Positions 9,100-47,459 of a stretch of 64,000 nucleotides of DNA are shown here, piece after piece. Below the pieces are notes generated by a model that had not been told where the DNA came from, made no database searches, and worked only from the letters and a program-made list of their open reading frames with translations. Source of the DNA: Campylobacterota bacterium (GTDB lineage Bacteria > Campylobacterota > Campylobacteria > Campylobacterales > Arcobacteraceae); the NCBI GenBank assembly GCA_003643835.1, contig QMKX01000004.1, forward strand, positions 1 to 64,000, in the 5' to 3' direction. Positions within the stretch are counted from its first letter, which is position 1. Each line of letters begins with the position of its first letter. A program made the translations under genes and the position numbers.

Positions 9100-9111
9100 A
9101 AAATTGGTTTG

Positions 9112-10133
9112 ATGATTGTGGAACTTTTATTGAAAATATTTGAAAATATGATTATACTGTCAAATGCTATGAGTTTTTTTATCTTAGCTGGTCTTTTGAT
9201 AGTAGCAGTGTTAAAACAGATTGTTCCAGATGACTACATAGTATCACATCTGGGCAAAAATAGTATAGGCTCAGTGATAAAGGCTACGGTATTTGGCATA
9301 CCTATGCCTGTGTGTTCTTGTAGTGTGATTCCTCTAGCAAAATCACTTCACAAAGAGGGTGCTAACAAAGGTGCGGTGCAGAGCTTTTTGATATCTGCTC
9401 CTATCACTGGGGCTGATTCTATCATGGTTACATATAGTTTTTTTGGTTGGATTTTCACTATATATAGAGTGATAACATCTAGTATCATGGCAGTTGCTAC
9501 AGGGCTACTACAAAATTATATCACAAAAAATGACAAGAAAATCACCACAATTGATACAACTTGTAGTGGTTGTTGTAGCAGTGATACAAAAAAACACAAT
9601 AAAAACTTTAATATAAAACAAACTTTTTATTATGCTTTTGTGACACTTTTTGAAGATATATATCTAGCATTGTTTGTAGGCATAATAGTTGGTGCTGTTT
9701 TTACTACACTACTACCCAAAGAGATATTAGCACCACTATTTGAGTATCAATTTTTGACATATTTTGCTGTGTTGGTTATATCTATGCCTTGTATGTATGT
9801 GCTACTGCATCGCTACCTATTGCGGCAGCATTTTTACTAAGCGGTATAAGTAGTGGGGCTGTGTTTGTATTTTTGAGTGCTGGTCCTGCTACAAATTCTG
9901 TGACTATGGGGGTCGTGTCTTCTATGTTTGGAAAAAAATCATTTTTCTTGTATCTTATATCTATCTCTATGATTAGTATATTGTTTGGTTATATTTTTGA
10001 CACTTTTTTTGACAAATTAGAGCTTTTTGATACTACAAGCGAGATAGAAAATATAGGTTTATTGGATACTATAAGCACAACTGTTATGTTTGCTTTGATT
10101 TTTTATTATATATACAAAAGGATTTTTAGATGA
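9112..10133 (+). pseudogene. Permease of the ArsP/SO_0444 (PF03773) family, broken by one base
   Basis: The first frame (from ATG 9112) encodes eight-helix permease sequence with the motif PVCSCSVIPLAKSLHKEGANKG that marks this metal/arsenical efflux permease family. A CSGCCSSD cysteine patch lies in the central loop. The frame runs out at 9840. The second half continues in the next frame from about 9789 with YVCATASLPIAAAFLLSGIS and FLSAGPATNS, the paired conserved motif. Restoring one base in CCTTG at 9787-9791 (to CCTATG) yields the expected SMPMYVCATAS. Hence a single-nucleotide deletion splits the gene. Its end overlaps the next start by ATGA. Confidence 0.8.
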
Positions 10134-35651: not shown

Positions 35652-36953
35652 TTATACTCTTATTTGTCTTGTAATATCACCTGCGCCTACAGCTAATACA
35701 GCTGATTTTGTTATAGTTTTTATCAAATTTTTATTCTCATCAAAAATATCTATTTTGCCTTGTTTTGCTTTTATATTTTTTGCGAAAGTTAGATTATAAA
35801 ACTCAAACTCTTTTTTAAAATTTATACTCAGAACCGGCTCGTTTACAGTCCATACCGGCAGTATTATAAGCTCCTTGCAGCCCTTGAAACAAGTTTTAAA
35901 TGCTTCTAAATTATCTTTTGTTCGACTATATTTATGTGGCTGCCAGATAACAATGATATCTTTTATATTTGCTTTGAGACAATACATCTTAGTAGCTTTT
36001 ATAGTAGCTTTTATCTCTGTTGGGTGGTGGGCATAGTCATCAATAACTACAAAATTTTTCTCTTTTTGCACTATGTCGAATCTTTTTTTGATACCTCTAT
36101 ATTTTAATAAGTTTTCTTTTATTTGTTCTAATCCTATCTCATTTAGTCCTGCGAGTATAGCAAGCGAAGCATCTATAGCTATATGTTTTCCAAATCCCCA
36201 AACCTCAAAATCTCCTATGTCTTTTAATACAAACGATGTATATGGTTCGCCATTTTTTAGATTGTATTTTATATCTTTTATATCTTTGCTCGGATACAAC
36301 TTGATACAATTTTTCATATTTCTCATATTTAAGAACTCATCTTCAGCATTGACTACTCTTATGGTTGCTTTACTTAAAAACTGTTTATAAGAATCAAAAA
36401 AAATCTCTTTGTTATAATTATAATACTCCATATGCTCTGGTTCTACATTTGTGACAATTGCACAATATGGATTAGAATACAAAAAACTTCCGTCGCTCTC
36501 ATCTGCTTCAAAACATATTGTATTGCCTATATACCTGAAATTCGAATTAAACTCCTTGCTAACAGCACCTATCAAGGCAGAGCTTTGCAATATCGCTGTT
36601 AGCATAGCTGTTGTTGTGCTTTTTCCATGAGCTCCGCATACAGAGTAATTTTTTTTATTTTCCAACACTATAGGCAAAGCTTCTTTTCTTGAGATTATTT
36701 TTATTGATTGTTTTTTTGCTTCTTGTATCTCTTTGTTGTTGTCATTTATTGCTGCTGAGTATATCAATATATCTTGATTGTGTATTGCTGATTTATTGTG
36801 TGGTATAGTGATTTTTATATTTTCACTTTCAAGCTGTTTTGTCAACGATGTTTCATGCATATCACTTCCTGATATATTATGTCCGCTATTATTTAGGAAT
36901 CTTGCTAATGCAGATAACCCTATACCTCCAATACCAACAAAATGTATATTCAC
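35652..36953 (-). CDS. murC: UDP-N-acetylmuramate-L-alanine ligase
   Basis: A 433-residue peptidoglycan precursor ligase. It has the N-terminal GIGGIGLSALA Rossmann motif, the ATP loop GAHGKSTTT, the central EADESDGSFL, and DDYAHHPTEIKATI with WQPHKYSRT near the C-terminus. The start is GTG at 36953, which shares its G with the TAG of clpA, a one-base overlap. No other mur genes are in the window. Confidence 0.95.
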   Translation of the reverse strand: MNIHFVGIGGIGLSALARFLNNSGHNISGSDMHETSLTKQLESENIKITIPHNKSAIHNQDILIYSAAINDNNKEIQEAKKQSIKIISRKEALPIVLENKKNYSVCGAHGKSTTTAMLTAILQSSALIGAVSKEFNSNFRYIGNTICFEADESDGSFLYSNPYCAIVTNVEPEHMEYYNYNKEIFFDSYKQFLSKATIRVVNAEDEFLNMRNMKNCIKLYPSKDIKDIKYNLKNGEPYTSFVLKDIGDFEVWGFGKHIAIDASLAILAGLNEIGLEQIKENLLKYRGIKKRFDIVQKEKNFVVIDDYAHHPTEIKATIKATKMYCLKANIKDIIVIWQPHKYSRTKDNLEAFKTCFKGCKELIILPVWTVNEPVLSINFKKEFEFYNLTFAKNIKAKQGKIDIFDENKNLIKTITKSAVLAVGAGDITRQIRV

Positions 36954-39154
36954 TACACTATTTTAAACTCTTTGTTGACAAAATCAACTTTAAGTTTATC
37001 TCCATATTTTATATCGCCAAATAATATCTTGCGACCTATAAGTTCTTTTATATGCTTGTTTATAACTCTTTGAAGCGGTCTAGCGCCCATGTCTTTGTTA
37101 TATCCCAATTCTATTATTTGTTCTTTTGCTTTTTTTGTGATAGATATTGTTATGTTTTTCTCTTTTAAATTGTTTTGCATATTGTTGATAAACTTATCTA
37201 CAATTAACCCTATGTATTGTTTGTTTATATGTGAAAATGGCACAATATCATCTATCCTATTCCTAAACTCAGCAGAAAAAAACTCTTTTAGTGCTCTGTT
37301 CTCATTTATGGTTTCATCTTTTTCAAAACCCATGACATTTGGCTCTTTTTGGCCTATGTTAGATGTCATGATTAGTATAACATTCTCAAAGTTTATAACT
37401 TCGCCATTATTGTCTGTTAGTTTTGCCCTATCCATAACTTGTAAAAGCAAAGACAATAAATCTTTATGAGCTTTTTCTATCTCGTCTAACAACAAAACAG
37501 TATATGGATTTTTCTTTATAGCATTGGTGAGCAACCCTCCTTTTTCGTATCCTACATATCCCGCAGGCGAACCAATAAGAGAACTAGAAGTGTGTGATTG
37601 TTGATACTCACTCATATCAAATCTTGTAAATTTTATATTTAAATTCAATGCCAATTGTTTAGCCAGCTCTGTTTTGCCTACCCCTGTTGGGCCAGTAAAC
37701 AAAAAACTTGCTATTGGTTTATTTGCATCTTTTAGTCCTGACTTACTGACATAAAGAGCAGCTGCTATTTTATCTATAGCTTCATCTTGGCCGAAAATTT
37801 CATTTTGTAGATTTTGTTTTATGTTTATCAAGCTTTTCTGTTTTTTTGATGCTGTTTTTTCATATGGTATGTTTGCCATATTGTAAACAACTTGCTTTAT
37901 GTCTGTGTTTTCTATTTTTGTAGTTTTTTCAAGTTTGCATTTTGTAGCAGTCTCATCAAGCACATCGATAGCTACATCAGGAAAATGCCTATCATATAAA
38001 TATCTATTTGACAATTTTATAATAGATTTTATAGATTTTTCATCAAACTTGACATCATGGTATTTTTCATAATCAGTTTTTATTCCATCTAATATGGCGA
38101 CACACTCTTCATCATTTGGCTGGTCTATATCTATCTTAGAAAATCTCCTACTTAGTGCTTTGTCGCTGTTGAAAATATTTCTGTATTCATCATATGTAGT
38201 AGCGCCAATACACCTCATATCGCCATTGGTCAGTAGTGGTTTGAGCATATTTGCAATATCTATAGAACTATCACCCACTGCTCCAGCTCCTACTATGTTG
38301 TGTATCTCATCTATAAATAATATACTATTTTTTTTCTTCAGTAGCTTTTTGAGTAGCTTTTTAAATCGTAATTCAAATTCGCCTCTAAATTTTGTGCCGG
38401 CTATCAAACTTGAAGTATCTAGTGAATATATTTTAGATTTTTTTATACTATTTGTTATAGTGTTGTTTGCTATTTGTTTAGCTATCTCAAGAACTATAGC
38501 TGTCTTACCAACTCCTGGTTCTCCTACAAGTATGGGATTGTTTTTGATTTTGCGATTTAAAACTAATTGTAGTTTTTTTATCTCTTTTTCTCTACCTATC
38601 AATTTATTATTTGCTTGGTTTGCTTTTTCTACAAGTTCATCACAATATAACTTCAAAACAGACTTTTTTTTCTGTTTTTTCTTTTTTATTTTTGTTTTAT
38701 CTTTTTTTGTTTCTATTTTGCTTTTTTCTTCTGTGGGGTTACCTGTTTTGTTGTGTATTACGAAGCTTTCTATGCCTTCGCTTCTTAGTAAATATGTTCC
38801 GTGTAGATTGTCATCGTTCATAAGCATAGCAAGCATATCCTCTATGTCAGCTTGGTTATAATCATTTTTATTTAGATACTCCATAACTTTTTTTGTAAGC
38901 TCACTAAATGATGTCGTAGCTACTGGATTTCTCTCTTTTGTTGGATGAAATTTAGGAATATCAAACTGCAAATAATCCATATATTGTTTCATAAAATTAT
39001 CGAAATCTATCCTAAGAAGTATCAAACAATTTTTTACGAACTTATCTTGTAGTATAGTATAATACAGATGCTCCACAGTTAGATATTTGTGAAACATCTT
39101 CACAGAAAGTTGGTTTGCCTCCATGAAAGCAGTATATAACTTATCTGTCAGCAT
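36953..39154 (-). CDS. clpA: ATP-dependent Clp protease ATP-binding subunit ClpA
   Basis: A 733-residue AAA+ unfoldase that feeds substrates to ClpP. It has an N-terminal Clp-N domain, a Lys-rich linker, AAA-1 with Walker A GEPGVGKTA and DEIH, and AAA-2 with GPTGVGKTE, LLLDEIEKAH and sensor motifs. The ClpP-docking loop tripeptide is present as MGF in NVMGFEKDE, so proteolysis coupling is retained. It overlaps the ClpS-like gene by 14 bp. clpP is not in the window. Confidence 0.95.
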   Translation of the reverse strand: MLTDKLYTAFMEANQLSVKMFHKYLTVEHLYYTILQDKFVKNCLILLRIDFDNFMKQYMDYLQFDIPKFHPTKERNPVATTSFSELTKKVMEYLNKNDYNQADIEDMLAMLMNDDNLHGTYLLRSEGIESFVIHNKTGNPTEEKSKIETKKDKTKIKKKKQKKKSVLKLYCDELVEKANQANNKLIGREKEIKKLQLVLNRKIKNNPILVGEPGVGKTAIVLEIAKQIANNTITNSIKKSKIYSLDTSSLIAGTKFRGEFELRFKKLLKKLLKKKNSILFIDEIHNIVGAGAVGDSSIDIANMLKPLLTNGDMRCIGATTYDEYRNIFNSDKALSRRFSKIDIDQPNDEECVAILDGIKTDYEKYHDVKFDEKSIKSIIKLSNRYLYDRHFPDVAIDVLDETATKCKLEKTTKIENTDIKQVVYNMANIPYEKTASKKQKSLINIKQNLQNEIFGQDEAIDKIAAALYVSKSGLKDANKPIASFLFTGPTGVGKTELAKQLALNLNIKFTRFDMSEYQQSHTSSSLIGSPAGYVGYEKGGLLTNAIKKNPYTVLLLDEIEKAHKDLLSLLLQVMDRAKLTDNNGEVINFENVILIMTSNIGQKEPNVMGFEKDETINENRALKEFFSAEFRNRIDDIVPFSHINKQYIGLIVDKFINNMQNNLKEKNITISITKKAKEQIIELGYNKDMGARPLQRVINKHIKELIGRKILFGDIKYGDKLKVDFVNKEFKIV

Positions 39155-39458
39155 TGTTTATCTCATTTGAATCTGCGTCCAATATGTAGTTATCATTTTT
39201 TGCATAATACTTTATATCTGACAACTTTGTTCTTGAAATTTCAAAAGAGTAGTTGCCAAAAGTTATTTTGCCATTTTTTTCAAGCTTTTTTAATGTCTCT
39301 TTTGCTTCTTGTTCATCTTGATCGCAAAAATCTGCCAATATCTTTATATAGTTTTTTTGTTTTATATTTTTGTTGAAGTAGTGTGTAAGATTGTATCTTT
39401 TTGGTATTTTGACAAAATCTTTACTTTGACTTCTAATAACTTGTGCTATCTCACTCAT
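39141..39458 (-). CDS. ClpS-like adaptor with altered N-degron pocket
   Basis: A 105-residue protein encoded at the usual clpS position, overlapping clpA by 14 bp and nudix by four. From RYNLTHYFNK to the C-terminus it aligns without gaps with ClpS (YKVxLxNDDYTxMxFV...), including the spacing of the later G-x-YSFEIS, TK and YA positions. At the substrate pocket the residues known in E. coli ClpS (Asn34, Asp35, Asp36, Thr38, Met40, His66) are replaced by Phe, Asn, Lys, Ile, Gln and Glu. This suggests that N-end-rule degron binding is lost or changed while ClpA binding may persist. Alignment is by eye from memory of ClpS. Confidence 0.65.
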   Translation of the reverse strand: MSEIAQVIRSQSKDFVKIPKRYNLTHYFNKNIKQKNYIKILADFCDQDEQEAKETLKKLEKNGKITFGNYSFEISRTKLSDIKYYAKNDNYILDADSNEINNADR

Positions 39459-40042
39459 AATTTATCCTCCATATGCCAATAAAATGCAAACATCAATCCA
39501 GATGTTTTTGCTTTTGCTTCATCAAATATAAACTTTTTTGCATCTTTTCTATCAATAAATTCAAGCTCTATAAATTCATCGTTTATGCCTCCGCCTTTGT
39601 GTTTTTTCATACTTTCATCAATAGTAGCTTCATATATATGTTGTTTAGAGCCACTAACTCCAACATTTGAAAAAAATGTGTTTATTTTATTTATTTTATT
39701 TATATTCACACTGTATCCGCACTCTTCATATATCTCTTCTTTAGCTATTTGGTTTATCGGTTTATTTTTGTCCAATATACCGGCACACAACTCATATGTG
39801 AAACTAAACTTATCATCTGTCAAATAAACTGGTGGTCTAAACTGTTTGACTACAAGATATGCATCAAAATCTTTATGATACAACAACACAGACACACTAT
39901 CAAAACTTCGCACTGTCTCCCAGATTTTAGCTACGCCATTTTGTTCGTATTTTATAGACAATGGTTTTATATATTTTGGGTCTTTCAGCCTTGTGGTTTC
40001 AAAGTTTCTGATATTTATATTTTTCAAGACAAACCTTTTCAT
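39455..40042 (-). CDS. NUDIX hydrolase
   Basis: A 195-residue protein of the ADP-ribose/UDP-sugar pyrophosphatase group. The Nudix box is recognisable as GILDKNKPINQIAKEEIYEE followed by CGY; the first Glu of the consensus is Lys here, and Arg is Glu. FTYELCAGIL before the box and SVLLYHKDFDAYLVVKQFRPP are family features. Substrate probably a nucleoside diphosphate derivative; not decidable from sequence. Overlaps the ClpS-like gene by four bases. Confidence 0.85.
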   Translation of the reverse strand: MKRFVLKNINIRNFETTRLKDPKYIKPLSIKYEQNGVAKIWETVRSFDSVSVLLYHKDFDAYLVVKQFRPPVYLTDDKFSFTYELCAGILDKNKPINQIAKEEIYEECGYSVNINKINKINTFFSNVGVSGSKQHIYEATIDESMKKHKGGGINDEFIELEFIDRKDAKKFIFDEAKAKTSGLMFAFYWHMEDKL

Positions 40043-42745: not shown

Positions 42746-45319
42746 ATGAACATAAAAAAACAATTTTTAAATTTTTTTAAATCAAAACATCATACAATAT
42801 TGCCAAGCTCTTCGCTTGTACCAGATGACCCCACGCTTATGTTTACAAATGCAGGTATGGTTCAGTTCAAAGACATATTTACAGGCAAAATCAAGCCGCC
42901 CACAAACAAAAGAGCAGTGAGTTGTCAGCTGTGTTTACGAGCAGGAGGCAAACACAATGACCTCGAAAATGTAGGTTTTACAAGTAGGCATCATACCTTG
43001 TTTGAGATGCTTGGGAACTTTTCTTTTGGTGACTATTTTAAGCAAGAAGCGATATCGTATGCTTGGGAGTTTATCACAAAAGTTTTGAAACTACCGGTTG
43101 ATAAACTATGGGTAACTGTGCATGAAAACGATGACGAAGCATATAAACTATGGCAAAAACATATTAGCACAGACCGTATCAAAAAGATAGGAGACAAAGA
43201 CAACTTCTGGTCTATGGGCGATACAGGAGCTTGTGGTCCTTGTAGTGAGATATTTTTTGATCAAGGCGAAGAGTTTTTTGATACCAAAGAGGATTATTTA
43301 GGTGGCGATGGTGATAGATTTTTAGAGATTTGGAACTTGGTGTTTATGCAGTTTGAAAGAGACAAAAGAGGCAATATGACCGCCTTGCCTAAGCCATCTA
43401 TCGATACTGGTATGGGTTTGGAAAGGGTTGTTGCTATCAAAGAAGGAGTTAATAACAATTTTGATACAAGTTTATTTACTCCCTTGATAGAGACTATAAA
43501 AAAGATATCAAATACAAAAATTACCAAAAAAAATATATCAAGCTTTCGTGTCATAGCAGACCATACTAAAGCAGTGTCATTTATGCTTTGTGATGGTGTG
43601 CTTTTTGACAATGATGGCAGAGGATATGTGCTTCGTCGTATCTTAAGACGAGCCATAAGACATGGCTATTTGTTGGGTCTGAGAGAGCCATTTGTAGGTG
43701 AAGTTGTAGATAGTTTGGTTAAAATTATGAAAGATGATTATGAATTTTTGCAAATCAAAAAGTCATATATAAAAGAGCAGATATTTCAAGAAGAGTTAAG
43801 ATTTTTCAAAACTATCAAAAATGGTATGAAACTATTTCAAGATGAGTTAGATAACACCACAGACGATATGTTTGATGGTGCGATAGCTTTTAAACTATAC
43901 GATACATATGGTTTTCCTCTTGATTTGACAGAAGATATGTTAAAAGAACACGATATTGCATTGGATAAAAAAAGTTTTGACAATGCTATGAAAGAACAAA
44001 AAACAAAAGCCAAAGCTTCTTGGAAAGGTAGTGGAGACGAAAATAAAACTGGTGATTTTATAGTGTTAATTGAGAAGCATGGAAAAAATAATTTCGTAGG
44101 CTATGACACAAACGAAACTAATAGCAAGATATTAGCGATATTGGATCATGATTTCAAAATTGTGACAGACACAAAAAACAAAAATGAATATTGGATAATG
44201 TTTGACAAAACTCCATTTTATGCAAATAGTGGTGGTCAAGTTGGTAGCACGGGGCAAATGACCGTAAACGATACTGTCATAAATGTGATTGATACAAACG
44301 AATTCTTTGGTATAAATATCTCTAAAATAAAAACAAGCAATATAGTCATAAATACAAATGACAAAGCAAAACTAATCGATACTAATATAGCAGAAACAAG
44401 CAAACACCATAGCGCCACACATCTACTCCAAGCTTCACTAAAAGAGGTGTTGGGGGATAGTGTTACACAAGCTGGTAGTTATAACGATCACGAAAAACTT
44501 AGGTTTGATTTTACTTATGCTAAACCCGTAGATAGCGAAGATTTAGAAACAATTGAAAAAAAAGTAAATGAACTAATATATAAAAGTATCGATTGTCAAA
44601 CACAAGTGTTGCCTATAAAACAAGCAAAAAAAACAGGAGCTACATCGATATTTGGCGAAAAGTATGGCGATGTGGTTAGAGTAGTTAGTTTTGAATATAA
44701 AAGTATTGAGTTTTGTGGAGGGGTGCATGTCGCAAATACATCTCATATTGGGTCATTTTTCATAACTAAACAAAGCAGTGTTAGTGCTGGAGTTAGACGA
44801 ATAGAAGCTGTGTGTGGCAAAAAAGCAAAAAGCTTCAACGATGAAAACATAAATAAAATAAAAAAATTAGAACATATTTTAAAAACAAAAGATATAATAA
44901 CCAAAACAACAAAACTAATAGACCACATGAAGCAGTTAAAAAATAGCGAGAAAAAAGATAAACATAAGATAGAGTATGATGTTCTAACTATAAATGATAT
45001 CAAAATAATAGTTGATATTGTAGATGGTAGCGATATTAAAGACATGATAGATGAACAAAAAATAAAATACAATAAAATAGCTATATTTTTATTGAAAATT
45101 GAAAACAATACGATTAAATTTTGTTGTGCTACAAAAAATGCAAACTTAAACTCAAATAGTTGGATAAAAGAGGTATGCAAGGAGATAGGTGGCAGTGGTG
45201 GCGGCAAAGAGAGTTTCGCACAAGGCGGAGCAAAAGAGATAAAATATATACAAATAGCAAAAACTAAAGCTATAGAGTTTGCAACAAAAAGTTTAAAGGA
45301 TACAAATGATAAAGCATAA
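42746..45319 (+). CDS. alaS: Alanyl-tRNA synthetase
   Basis: An 857-residue class II synthetase charging tRNA-Ala. The catalytic domain has the motif 2 region GRKHNDLENVG and PKPSIDTGMGLERV; the editing domain has HHSATHLLQASL and the zinc-binding CGGVHVANTSHIG. The C-terminal GSGGGKESFAQGG completes the C-Ala region. Start ATG 42746 has AAGGGA upstream. The end overlaps pglB by 14 bp. Confidence 0.97.
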   Translation: MNIKKQFLNFFKSKHHTILPSSSLVPDDPTLMFTNAGMVQFKDIFTGKIKPPTNKRAVSCQLCLRAGGKHNDLENVGFTSRHHTLFEMLGNFSFGDYFKQEAISYAWEFITKVLKLPVDKLWVTVHENDDEAYKLWQKHISTDRIKKIGDKDNFWSMGDTGACGPCSEIFFDQGEEFFDTKEDYLGGDGDRFLEIWNLVFMQFERDKRGNMTALPKPSIDTGMGLERVVAIKEGVNNNFDTSLFTPLIETIKKISNTKITKKNISSFRVIADHTKAVSFMLCDGVLFDNDGRGYVLRRILRRAIRHGYLLGLREPFVGEVVDSLVKIMKDDYEFLQIKKSYIKEQIFQEELRFFKTIKNGMKLFQDELDNTTDDMFDGAIAFKLYDTYGFPLDLTEDMLKEHDIALDKKSFDNAMKEQKTKAKASWKGSGDENKTGDFIVLIEKHGKNNFVGYDTNETNSKILAILDHDFKIVTDTKNKNEYWIMFDKTPFYANSGGQVGSTGQMTVNDTVINVIDTNEFFGINISKIKTSNIVINTNDKAKLIDTNIAETSKHHSATHLLQASLKEVLGDSVTQAGSYNDHEKLRFDFTYAKPVDSEDLETIEKKVNELIYKSIDCQTQVLPIKQAKKTGATSIFGEKYGDVVRVVSFEYKSIEFCGGVHVANTSHIGSFFITKQSSVSAGVRRIEAVCGKKAKSFNDENINKIKKLEHILKTKDIITKTTKLIDHMKQLKNSEKKDKHKIEYDVLTINDIKIIVDIVDGSDIKDMIDEQKIKYNKIAIFLLKIENNTIKFCCATKNANLNSNSWIKEVCKEIGGSGGGKESFAQGGAKEIKYIQIAKTKAIEFATKSLKDTNDKA

Positions 45320-47459
45320 CAAAGCATTGCAAGCAACAGCACTGATACTTGTGGCATTTATATTTTCTGTAGCAGTGCGTATGATATGGGTTTATAAGTT
45401 TAGTGATACTCAACAATTTAGATACGATGGCACATTTATGCTTACTACAACCGATGGCTACTATTTTGCTGAAGGCGCAAGAGATATCATAAAAGAAACA
45501 AACCACATAGAAGCACAAGCATATCGTTCTCCTACGACACAAGCATTATCGCAACTTACAGCTGTATTGTATAAAATTTTGCCATTTACTTTAGATGAGA
45601 TTATGTTTTATATGTCTGCTTTTTTTGCATCACTTTTAGTTATACCGCTGGTGCTTATAGGTTTGGCATATGGAAGTTTAACATTTGGTTTTATAGCAGC
45701 CTTGGTGGGCTCGGTTGCTTGGAGTTATTATAACAGGACTATGGTAGGGTATTATGATACTGACCTGTTAAATATCGTATTTCCTACACTTTTGTTGTGG
45801 TCACTTATAGGTGCTATTGCCACTAAACACGACAGATATATACTGTTCATAGCCATAGAGACGATACTATATCGCTGGTGGTATCCTCAGTCATACTCGC
45901 TAGAGATTGCATTTATATGTCTTCTGGCGGTGTTTACATTCTATACATGGTTCAAGAAAAGGGATAACTTTTATAATTTTGCTTTGATAATATTTATGCT
46001 ATTGTCCACACTAAACATAGATATGATTTATAGAGCTTCTTTGATGGGTGTATTATTGGTATTTTTACACTTTAAAAAAGATATATTTAGAAAGTATATC
46101 TATTATATACTGGGGTTTTCTATAGCACTATTTTTTGCTACTGGAGGCTTAAATCCTATTATAAGCCTACTTGATACCTATATTTTCCAAAGAAAAGCCA
46201 TAATTGCCCAAAATATATTAGATTTACATTTTTTTGCCGTTATACAAACTATAAGCGAAGCACAACATATACCATTTGAAACATTTGCAAACAGAATTAG
46301 CGGACATACCATCACATTTTTTCTTAGTATCGCTGGTTATATTTGGTTATCAATAAATAAAAAAAGTATGATTATAGCAATTCCTATGATAGGACTTGGG
46401 TTTTTAGCTATTTATGGAGGGCTTAGGTTTACCATATATGCTGTGCCTGTTTTTGCTATGGGTATCGCTTATTTGATAATACAACTCACAAATACTATAG
46501 ATGATATCAGAATTAGAATTGTATCTATAATAGTATTAACTTTATTGGCTCTATATCCAAATATATCGCATGCATACAATTACAATGCATCAACTGTGTT
46601 TTATAAAGATGAGGTAGCTACACTAAACAAACTCAAATCAATAGTTTCAAAAGATGATTATGTTGTAGGATGGTGGGATTATGGTTATCCTATTAGATAC
46701 TACACAGACGCACACACATTTATAGATGGTGGCGCACACTCTGGAAGCGATAATTTTCCAACAAGCTATTTTTTAACAAAACCACAAAATGTGGCAGCTA
46801 AGATGATAAGATTAGAGGCTAAATATATTGAAGAAAATGCAAACAGAATAAAAAATTCTCTCATGGGCAAACCAGATAAAAACAGAACAAATAGCTCACG
46901 CATAGCAAATATGACTACTGATTATGGCTTTAGTGATACAAATGATTTTTTATATAGCTTAAGCACAGATATCTCTTTGCCAAAGATGACAAACGATGTG
47001 TATCTATATCTACCATTTAGGATGCTGGACATCTACCCGGTTATTGAAAGATTTTCAAATATCGACCTCATGACAGGAGCACAAAAAACAGCTGGTTTTT
47101 ATTATTATCCAGCTCAATATAAACAAAACAAAGAAGCAATAATCTTTGATAACAATATGATGCTGGACAAAGCTACAGGAGTGATAACAGTAGGCAAAAA
47201 TAACAAATTTAAGGTCAAAAGATATGTAACTACAAACTATACAAGCAACTCAAAAATGGAAAAAAACATCCAATTAGCACACGATGACGGTGATTTAAGT
47301 ATAATATTTATGCAAAATCAAAACAAATTTATCATCATAGATGAAGAGAAATACAACTCTACATATTTTCAACTATATGTGCTGGACAATTATAACAAAG
47401 ATCTATTTGAATTAGTTGTTTATCATCCATTTGTAAAGGTTTATAAATTAAAAATATAA
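45306..47459 (+). CDS. pglB: Oligosaccharyltransferase PglB (STT3 family)
   Basis: A 717-residue membrane enzyme that transfers a lipid-linked oligosaccharide to Asn in D/E-X-N-X-S/T sites in the periplasm. It has the STT3 catalytic features: TTDGYYFAEGARD (first Asp), YYDTDLLNIVFP (DxD), and WWDYGY at 456-461. Thirteen or so helices form the N-terminal half and the C-terminal domain is soluble. It stands alone without glycan-building pgl genes nearby and overlaps alaS by 14 bp. The start codon 45306 has AAAGGA about eight bases upstream. Confidence 0.94.
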   Translation: MIKHNKALQATALILVAFIFSVAVRMIWVYKFSDTQQFRYDGTFMLTTTDGYYFAEGARDIIKETNHIEAQAYRSPTTQALSQLTAVLYKILPFTLDEIMFYMSAFFASLLVIPLVLIGLAYGSLTFGFIAALVGSVAWSYYNRTMVGYYDTDLLNIVFPTLLLWSLIGAIATKHDRYILFIAIETILYRWWYPQSYSLEIAFICLLAVFTFYTWFKKRDNFYNFALIIFMLLSTLNIDMIYRASLMGVLLVFLHFKKDIFRKYIYYILGFSIALFFATGGLNPIISLLDTYIFQRKAIIAQNILDLHFFAVIQTISEAQHIPFETFANRISGHTITFFLSIAGYIWLSINKKSMIIAIPMIGLGFLAIYGGLRFTIYAVPVFAMGIAYLIIQLTNTIDDIRIRIVSIIVLTLLALYPNISHAYNYNASTVFYKDEVATLNKLKSIVSKDDYVVGWWDYGYPIRYYTDAHTFIDGGAHSGSDNFPTSYFLTKPQNVAAKMIRLEAKYIEENANRIKNSLMGKPDKNRTNSSRIANMTTDYGFSDTNDFLYSLSTDISLPKMTNDVYLYLPFRMLDIYPVIERFSNIDLMTGAQKTAGFYYYPAQYKQNKEAIIFDNNMMLDKATGVITVGKNNKFKVKRYVTTNYTSNSKMEKNIQLAHDDGDLSIIFMQNQNKFIIIDEEKYNSTYFQLYVLDNYNKDLFELVVYHPFVKVYKLKI

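Follow-up and report, generated by a model that had tools for sequence, protein, structure and literature searches.

The window analysed here, a stretch of 64,000 nucleotides from an Arcobacteraceae genome (G000; 1.43 Mb, 96% complete), encodes before clpA a protein, clpS*, which belongs to ClpS by fold and descent and in which all the residues that hold the substrate alpha-amino group, and nearly all those of the side-chain pocket, are replaced. On comparative sequence grounds, we give about an even chance to the view that clpS* is a ClpS descendant without N-degron recognition, which persists as a ClpA-docking regulator of the ClpAP protease.

The clpS* locus

The gene lies within a compact group of reading frames, the main members of which are listed below.

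39455..40042, minus strand: NUDIX hydrolase (YffH/AdpP family), with a 4-nt overlap with clpS*
39141..39458, minus strand: clpS*, a ClpS homologue that lacks the N-degron pocket; 105 aa, ATG start, coordinates including the stop
36953..39154, minus strand: clpA; 733 aa, its N-domain far from relatives and conserved within the clade
35652..36953, minus strand: murC, immediately 3' of clpA

Along the minus strand the gene order is prs, ridA-like, NUDIX, clpS*, clpA, murC. The ClpS-like gene placed before clpA by the sequence-only reading was found exactly there, sharing 4 nt with the upstream NUDIX gene and 14 nt with the downstream clpA. The region after clpA, occupied here by murC, is where many family members have aat close to clpA. 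A search of the 96% complete genome for a second, canonical clpS, as the same reading had proposed, found no other ClpS homologue, clpS* being the sole match. Both ClpP and tmRNA are encoded, the tmRNA tag being ANNTNYSPAFAKVA; tags of the clade (L092, L091, L090) end in AKVA or AKIA instead of LAA.

Two further genes of the window deserve mention in their own right. At 9109-10133 (plus strand), an SO_0444-family Cu/Zn efflux transporter gene consists of two overlapping ORFs, covering positions 4-242 and 240-348 of the 351 of the family model: as read from these ORFs, the gene is split by a frameshift, either genuine or from assembly. A PglB-type oligosaccharyltransferase gene, located at 45306-47459 (plus strand), scores 567 bits, far under the NCBIfam cut-off of 1300.

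Homology and fold

Profile searches place the protein at the edge of the ClpS family. Pfam ClpS (PF02617) recognizes it with 24.3 bits (cut-off 23, E 2.7e-5), and the NCBIfam ClpS equivalog models with E-values of 3e-7 to 5e-6, far under their cut-offs; its identity is about 20% with the E. coli protein and 21-28% with relatives. A gapless alignment to ClpS over some 80 residues, noticed from the sequence alone, was recovered by two routes: E. coli ClpS provides the best phmmer matches in the PDB, with clpS* residues 6-91 lying on E. coli 12-97 with no gap, and hhalign, comparing three divergent proteins, those of G000 and of two relatives described below, with 24 normal ClpS, returned 94 gapless columns (probability 97%, E 8.8e-11).

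Structure prediction, suggested earlier as a check, led to the same family. AlphaFold2, run on the three divergent sequences alone and thus unguided by normal ClpS, arranged the structural elements as in ClpS, at a modest pLDDT of 57, and the top 36 matches of this model in a PDB fold search were ClpS throughout. A second model, with normal ClpS in an alignment that biases it towards ClpS, reached pLDDT 76 and fitted E. coli ClpS with an rmsd of 1.2 A across 82 columns. Fold searches with both models rule out an unrelated fold; a phage origin was also considered, and rejected, the search having given no phage relative.

A divergent ClpS in one Arcobacteraceae genus

Divergent ClpS proteins were found in three of the four genomes of one Arcobacteraceae genus, all three from uncultured bacteria. 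Besides G000, these are G037 and G039, the proteins of which are 44-45% identical to clpS* and feature an identical NUDIX-clpS*-clpA arrangement; the records matching them are the Arcobacteraceae MAGs GMC3_bin_14 and GMC7.metabat2.111. In an order-wide sample of 399 genomes, G000 and G037 scored 187-200 bits and the next best match 38 bits; G039, presumably not drawn, is not among the matches listed from this sample. Sequencing or assembly error was rejected as a source of the divergence, since the same change is present in two further genomes.

In the one remaining genome of this genus, G038, ClpS (L044) is normal, with N-D-N and His in the pocket, and an lgt-like gene lies directly upstream of clpS, where the others have NUDIX. 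Its ClpS can be used as an ancestral-state control.

Loss of the N-degron pocket

The two parts of the recognition site were located as follows.

39348..39377, minus strand: pocket stretch, residues 28-37, corresponding to E. coli N34-D35-D36-Y37-T38-P39-M40 and V43
39279..39281, minus strand: E60, at the site of His66, from the column table of 52 normal ClpS

The earlier observation of Phe, Asn, Lys and Glu in place of Asn34, Asp35, Asp36 and His66 is exact by alignment: the equivalents are F28, N29, K30 and E60, and the pocket stretch reads F28 N29 K30 N31 I32 K33 Q34, plus Y37. The observation can be widened, the same change being found in two further species: in the three divergent proteins Asn34 is replaced by Phe/Tyr, Asp35 by Asn, Asp36 by Lys/Glu and His66 by Glu/Lys. 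Among 52 normal ClpS of the family and the order, by comparison, Asn34 and Asp35 are invariant (52/52), position 36 holds either Asp or Asn, and 51 of 52 have His66. The loss also reaches the side-chain pocket, where the gatekeeper M40 is changed to Gln/Asp, V43 to Tyr and M62 to Leu in all three proteins, and Leu32 and Leu33 of the strand (the latter being Val33 in E. coli) have given way to other residues too; the pocket-floor Leu99 is retained, as L93. When positions at least 90% conserved in the 52 normal ClpS are considered, none of 8 in the pocket is kept in all three proteins, versus 10 of 24 elsewhere (Fisher P 0.035).

An Asn-Asp-Asp motif and a His placed elsewhere in the chain would have undone this picture, and were looked for. 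No homologous motif was found, and no aligner introduced a gap in the region. The sole His of clpS*, H26 in strand 1, is not the equivalent of His66, and its sole Asn-Asp-Asn, at 88-90 near the C-terminus, is missing in relatives; the pocket loss therefore stands. Both defining features of an N-recognin, the amino-group residues and the Met40-gated hydrophobic pocket, are absent, and because this defining sequence test fails, clpS* should be annotated as an N-degron adaptor only on the basis of experiment.

Loss of the N-degron-making enzymes

The enzymes which produce N-degrons are widespread in the family, Aat (PF03588) being found in 93 of 104 genomes and ATE/Bpt (PF04377) in 97 of 104. Searches for PF03588 and PF04377 gave no match in any of the four genus genomes (94-99% complete). 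Since all four, G038 included, are devoid of both, these enzymes were lost first or more widely; the distribution across genomes suggests an order in which the transferases went first and the pocket followed. The normal pocket of G038 could serve only primary N-degrons. A more distant member of the same family, G052 (genus g8; small, 97% complete), is without clpS, clpA, aat and ate, a ClpB-like match remaining: judged by gene content, the N-degron branch was here lost entirely, and independently.

These data bear on whether clpS* may still be an N-recognin, binding ordinary N-terminal residues through a pocket built differently. The retention of Leu99 as L93 would fit such a pocket, as would the remote Leptospira ClpS1, which is also without the His (PMC12493166). 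Against it, Asn34, Asp35, Asp36 and His66 were lost together with Met40, Val43 and Met62, the residues replacing Asn34 and Val43 (F/Y28 and Y37) are aromatic and may plug the pocket, and Aat and ATE are missing. Normal N-degron reading is, on this sequence evidence, very unlikely, and it is the least probable of the explanations considered.

Docking face and N-terminal extension

Two other parts of the protein had a different fate.

39225..39257, minus strand: ClpA-facing stretch, residues 68-78, with contact residues from PMC12493166
39393..39458, minus strand: N-terminal extension MSEIAQVIRSQSKDFVKIPKRY (residues 1-22); of the usual junction, one proline is present

In the ClpA-facing stretch, G68 (G74 in E. 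coli numbering), Y70 (76), E73 (E79), I74 (80), T77 (T83) and K78 (K84) have been retained by each of the three divergent proteins, position 76 being Tyr in relatives, as in clpS*, and Phe (F76) in E. coli. In E. coli ClpS, Glu79 contacts ClpA Glu28 and Thr81, and Lys84 contacts ClpA Glu23 (PMC12493166).

The extension is predicted to be disordered, with pLDDT below 50 over residues 1-18 in the three-sequence model, and reaches the core through the junction K-I-P-K-R-Y. Between clpS* and its G037 homologue, it is 62% identical, versus 41% for the core. This is unusual, the extension being as a rule the part of ClpS that varies most: among pairs of normal ClpS whose cores are no more than 75% identical, an extension more conserved than the core is seen in at most 3%.

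A third conserved region coincides with the former ligand site. Over strand 1 and the loop behind it, clpS* and its G037 homologue share 64% of residues, but only 8-9% are shared with normal ClpS, and all three divergent proteins have the strand 1 motif L-T-H-Y-F/Y-N. This new constraint supports the idea that clpS* is a genuine adaptor whose ligand has changed: the altered surface around strand 1 and helix 1 would bind another degron or one particular partner protein, to be delivered to ClpAP by pulling on the extension; the extension and the docking face, which such an adaptor would need, are indeed still kept. Helix 1 and helix 2, however, are only 36% and 19% identical between clpS* and G037, which makes a conserved second half of the pocket unclear, and no candidate substrate is at hand. 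We regard a new-ligand adaptor as the strongest rival reading, though less probable than a regulator.

Co-divergence of the ClpA N-domain

The partner protein changed as well. The ClpA N-domain encoded next to clpS* has 19-21% identity to its counterparts in relatives from other genera, 30% to that of G038 and 69% to that of G037, the corresponding figures for the D1 domain being 47-49%, 56% and 70%. Control proteins are much better conserved, HslU sharing 88% of its residues with G037, 77% with G038 and 64-72% with the family, and the NUDIX protein 77%, 67% and 54-59%, respectively; the N-domain has therefore diverged far beyond the remainder, and become conserved again within the clade. The ClpA N-domain is the docking platform of ClpS and, according to these identities, is changed alongside clpS*. 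Some contact residues survived this change: Glu28 and Thr81 are retained in all three ClpA proteins, while Glu23 is Lys in all three, with numbering from what we take to be the E. coli ClpA N-domain sequence, on which the family comparisons do not depend. The Glu23 to Lys change would remove one salt bridge to ClpS Lys84.

Descent and selection

In a tree of the ClpA D1 domain, the three genomes with a divergent ClpS group with G038 (support 99/94), on a long branch of 1.16 changes per site. The tree disfavours horizontal replacement of the clpS-clpA pair, although the long branches leave less than certainty, and by its grouping of the three with G038 makes vertical descent with rapid change the simplest account.

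Rapid change could also denote a decaying gene, left without purpose by the loss of the N-degron enzymes and drifting, held in place by translational coupling to clpA. The core does evolve fast: identity between G000 and G037 is 45% for the whole of clpS*, 72% for ClpA and 88% for HslU. Moreover, Aat and ATE are gone, the genomes are small, and the relative G052 went as far as losing clpS, clpA, aat and ate entirely. Drift is hard to reconcile, however, with frames which are intact in three species, those of G000 and G037 having been retained at a saturated synonymous distance (1.5 or past estimation). In the close pair G037-G039, a test based on 21 nucleotide differences counted 9 amino-acid-changing codons in clpS* versus 14.5 expected under neutrality by simulation (P 0.005), and dN/dS is 0.19-0.37 for clpS* (two methods), 0.21 for NUDIX and 0.11-0.15 for clpA; as measured by these codon changes, clpS* is under purifying selection in this pair. 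Decay would further have to spare specifically the extension, strand 1 and the docking residues, and to leave the ClpA N-domain as well conserved within the clade as D1. We hold it to be unlikely, less so than continued N-degron reading; the sequence comparisons place it below both a regulator and a new adaptor.

A proposed regulator of ClpAP

What clpS* has kept, the ClpA-facing residues and the extension which enters the pore, favours its being a regulator of ClpA. In E. coli, ClpS docks on the ClpA N-domain and its extension enters the channel, where the pore loops grip it as a mimic of a degron; the ATPase activity of ClpA then drops, and SsrA substrates escape degradation (PMC9663308; PMC6274998). 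On the strength of these E. coli studies, restraint of ClpA by ClpS would need the docking face and the extension, but not the pocket. Leptospira ClpS1, which has an altered pocket, inhibits the ClpA ATPase by 57% via the ClpA N-domain (PMC12493166). Since clpS* keeps the parts for restraint of ClpAP and has lost those for N-degrons, regulation of ClpAP is its most likely role. Two observations weigh against this role: one contact, that of ClpS Lys84 with ClpA Glu23 (now Lys), appears to be broken, and the core of clpS* evolves fast.

According to this mechanism, clpS* would bind the N-domain of the ClpA encoded beside it, which has diverged along with it, and pass its extension into the channel of that ClpA, so as to slow ClpA as a pseudo-substrate; alternatively, it would alter which targets ClpA selects, be they SsrA-tagged proteins, ClpA molecules or others. 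In either case, N-end-rule proteins would go undelivered by clpS*. The sequence-only reading had interpreted the protein as ClpS-like with a rewritten pocket, which is well supported by the alignments, the models, the occurrence in three species and the loss of Aat and ATE; its alternative label of anti-adaptor is not quite apt, because the genome search gave no normal ClpS with which clpS* might compete.

In broader terms, we find it rather probable that functions were separated here, adaptor and ClpA N-domain having co-evolved into either a dedicated regulatory pair or a new adaptor-degron system. If this is true, then of the two activities of ClpS, N-degron delivery and restraint of ClpA, the second, or else a replacement cargo, was worth keeping alone after the first had gone. 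A pocketless ClpS is a reagent for testing how ClpS slows ClpAP, and clpS* with its ClpA offers an example of an adaptor and an unfoldase N-domain changing together.

Comparison with known systems

A literature search, conducted mostly without subscription journals, returned no ClpS that is the only one of its genome and lacks the whole amino-group site, which supports novelty weakly. The closest frame of reference is given by the ClpS of E. coli, Caulobacter and Campylobacterota (PF02617), with which clpS* shares fold, length, order before clpA and a disordered extension with a proline junction, as well as, with E. coli-type ClpS, the ClpA-facing Glu79, Thr83 and Lys84. It differs from the E. 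coli type in the recognition site, where the alpha-amino residues are all replaced in clpS* and those of the side-chain pocket nearly all.

Leptospira ClpS1 is, like clpS*, distant from other ClpS and changed in its pocket, which has Asp for His and Tyr for Met; it still inhibits the ClpA ATPase via the N-domain. Unlike clpS*, it keeps the Asp and Asn of the amino-group site, has lost Lys84, and is encoded apart from clpA alongside a normal ClpS2; clpS* is the sole ClpS of its genome, has lost the whole site and has kept Lys84.

The ClpS2 of Agrobacterium and Synechococcus and the plant and apicoplast ClpS are also variants of the ClpS fold, some of them shifted in specificity, and Agrobacterium ClpS2 and plant ClpS1 are among the fold-search matches of clpS*. 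The characterised Synechococcus and apicoplast proteins still read N-terminal residues (PMC7966870), while clpS*, unlike the characterised variants of this group, is without the residues to do so.

HspQ, MgtC and ClpF resemble the proposed regulator as modulators or anti-adaptors that alter the substrate choice of Clp, but they are not classed among the homologues of ClpS. The targets of HspQ and MgtC are ClpS or its substrate (PMC7966870); clpS*, in contrast, is predicted to act on ClpA.
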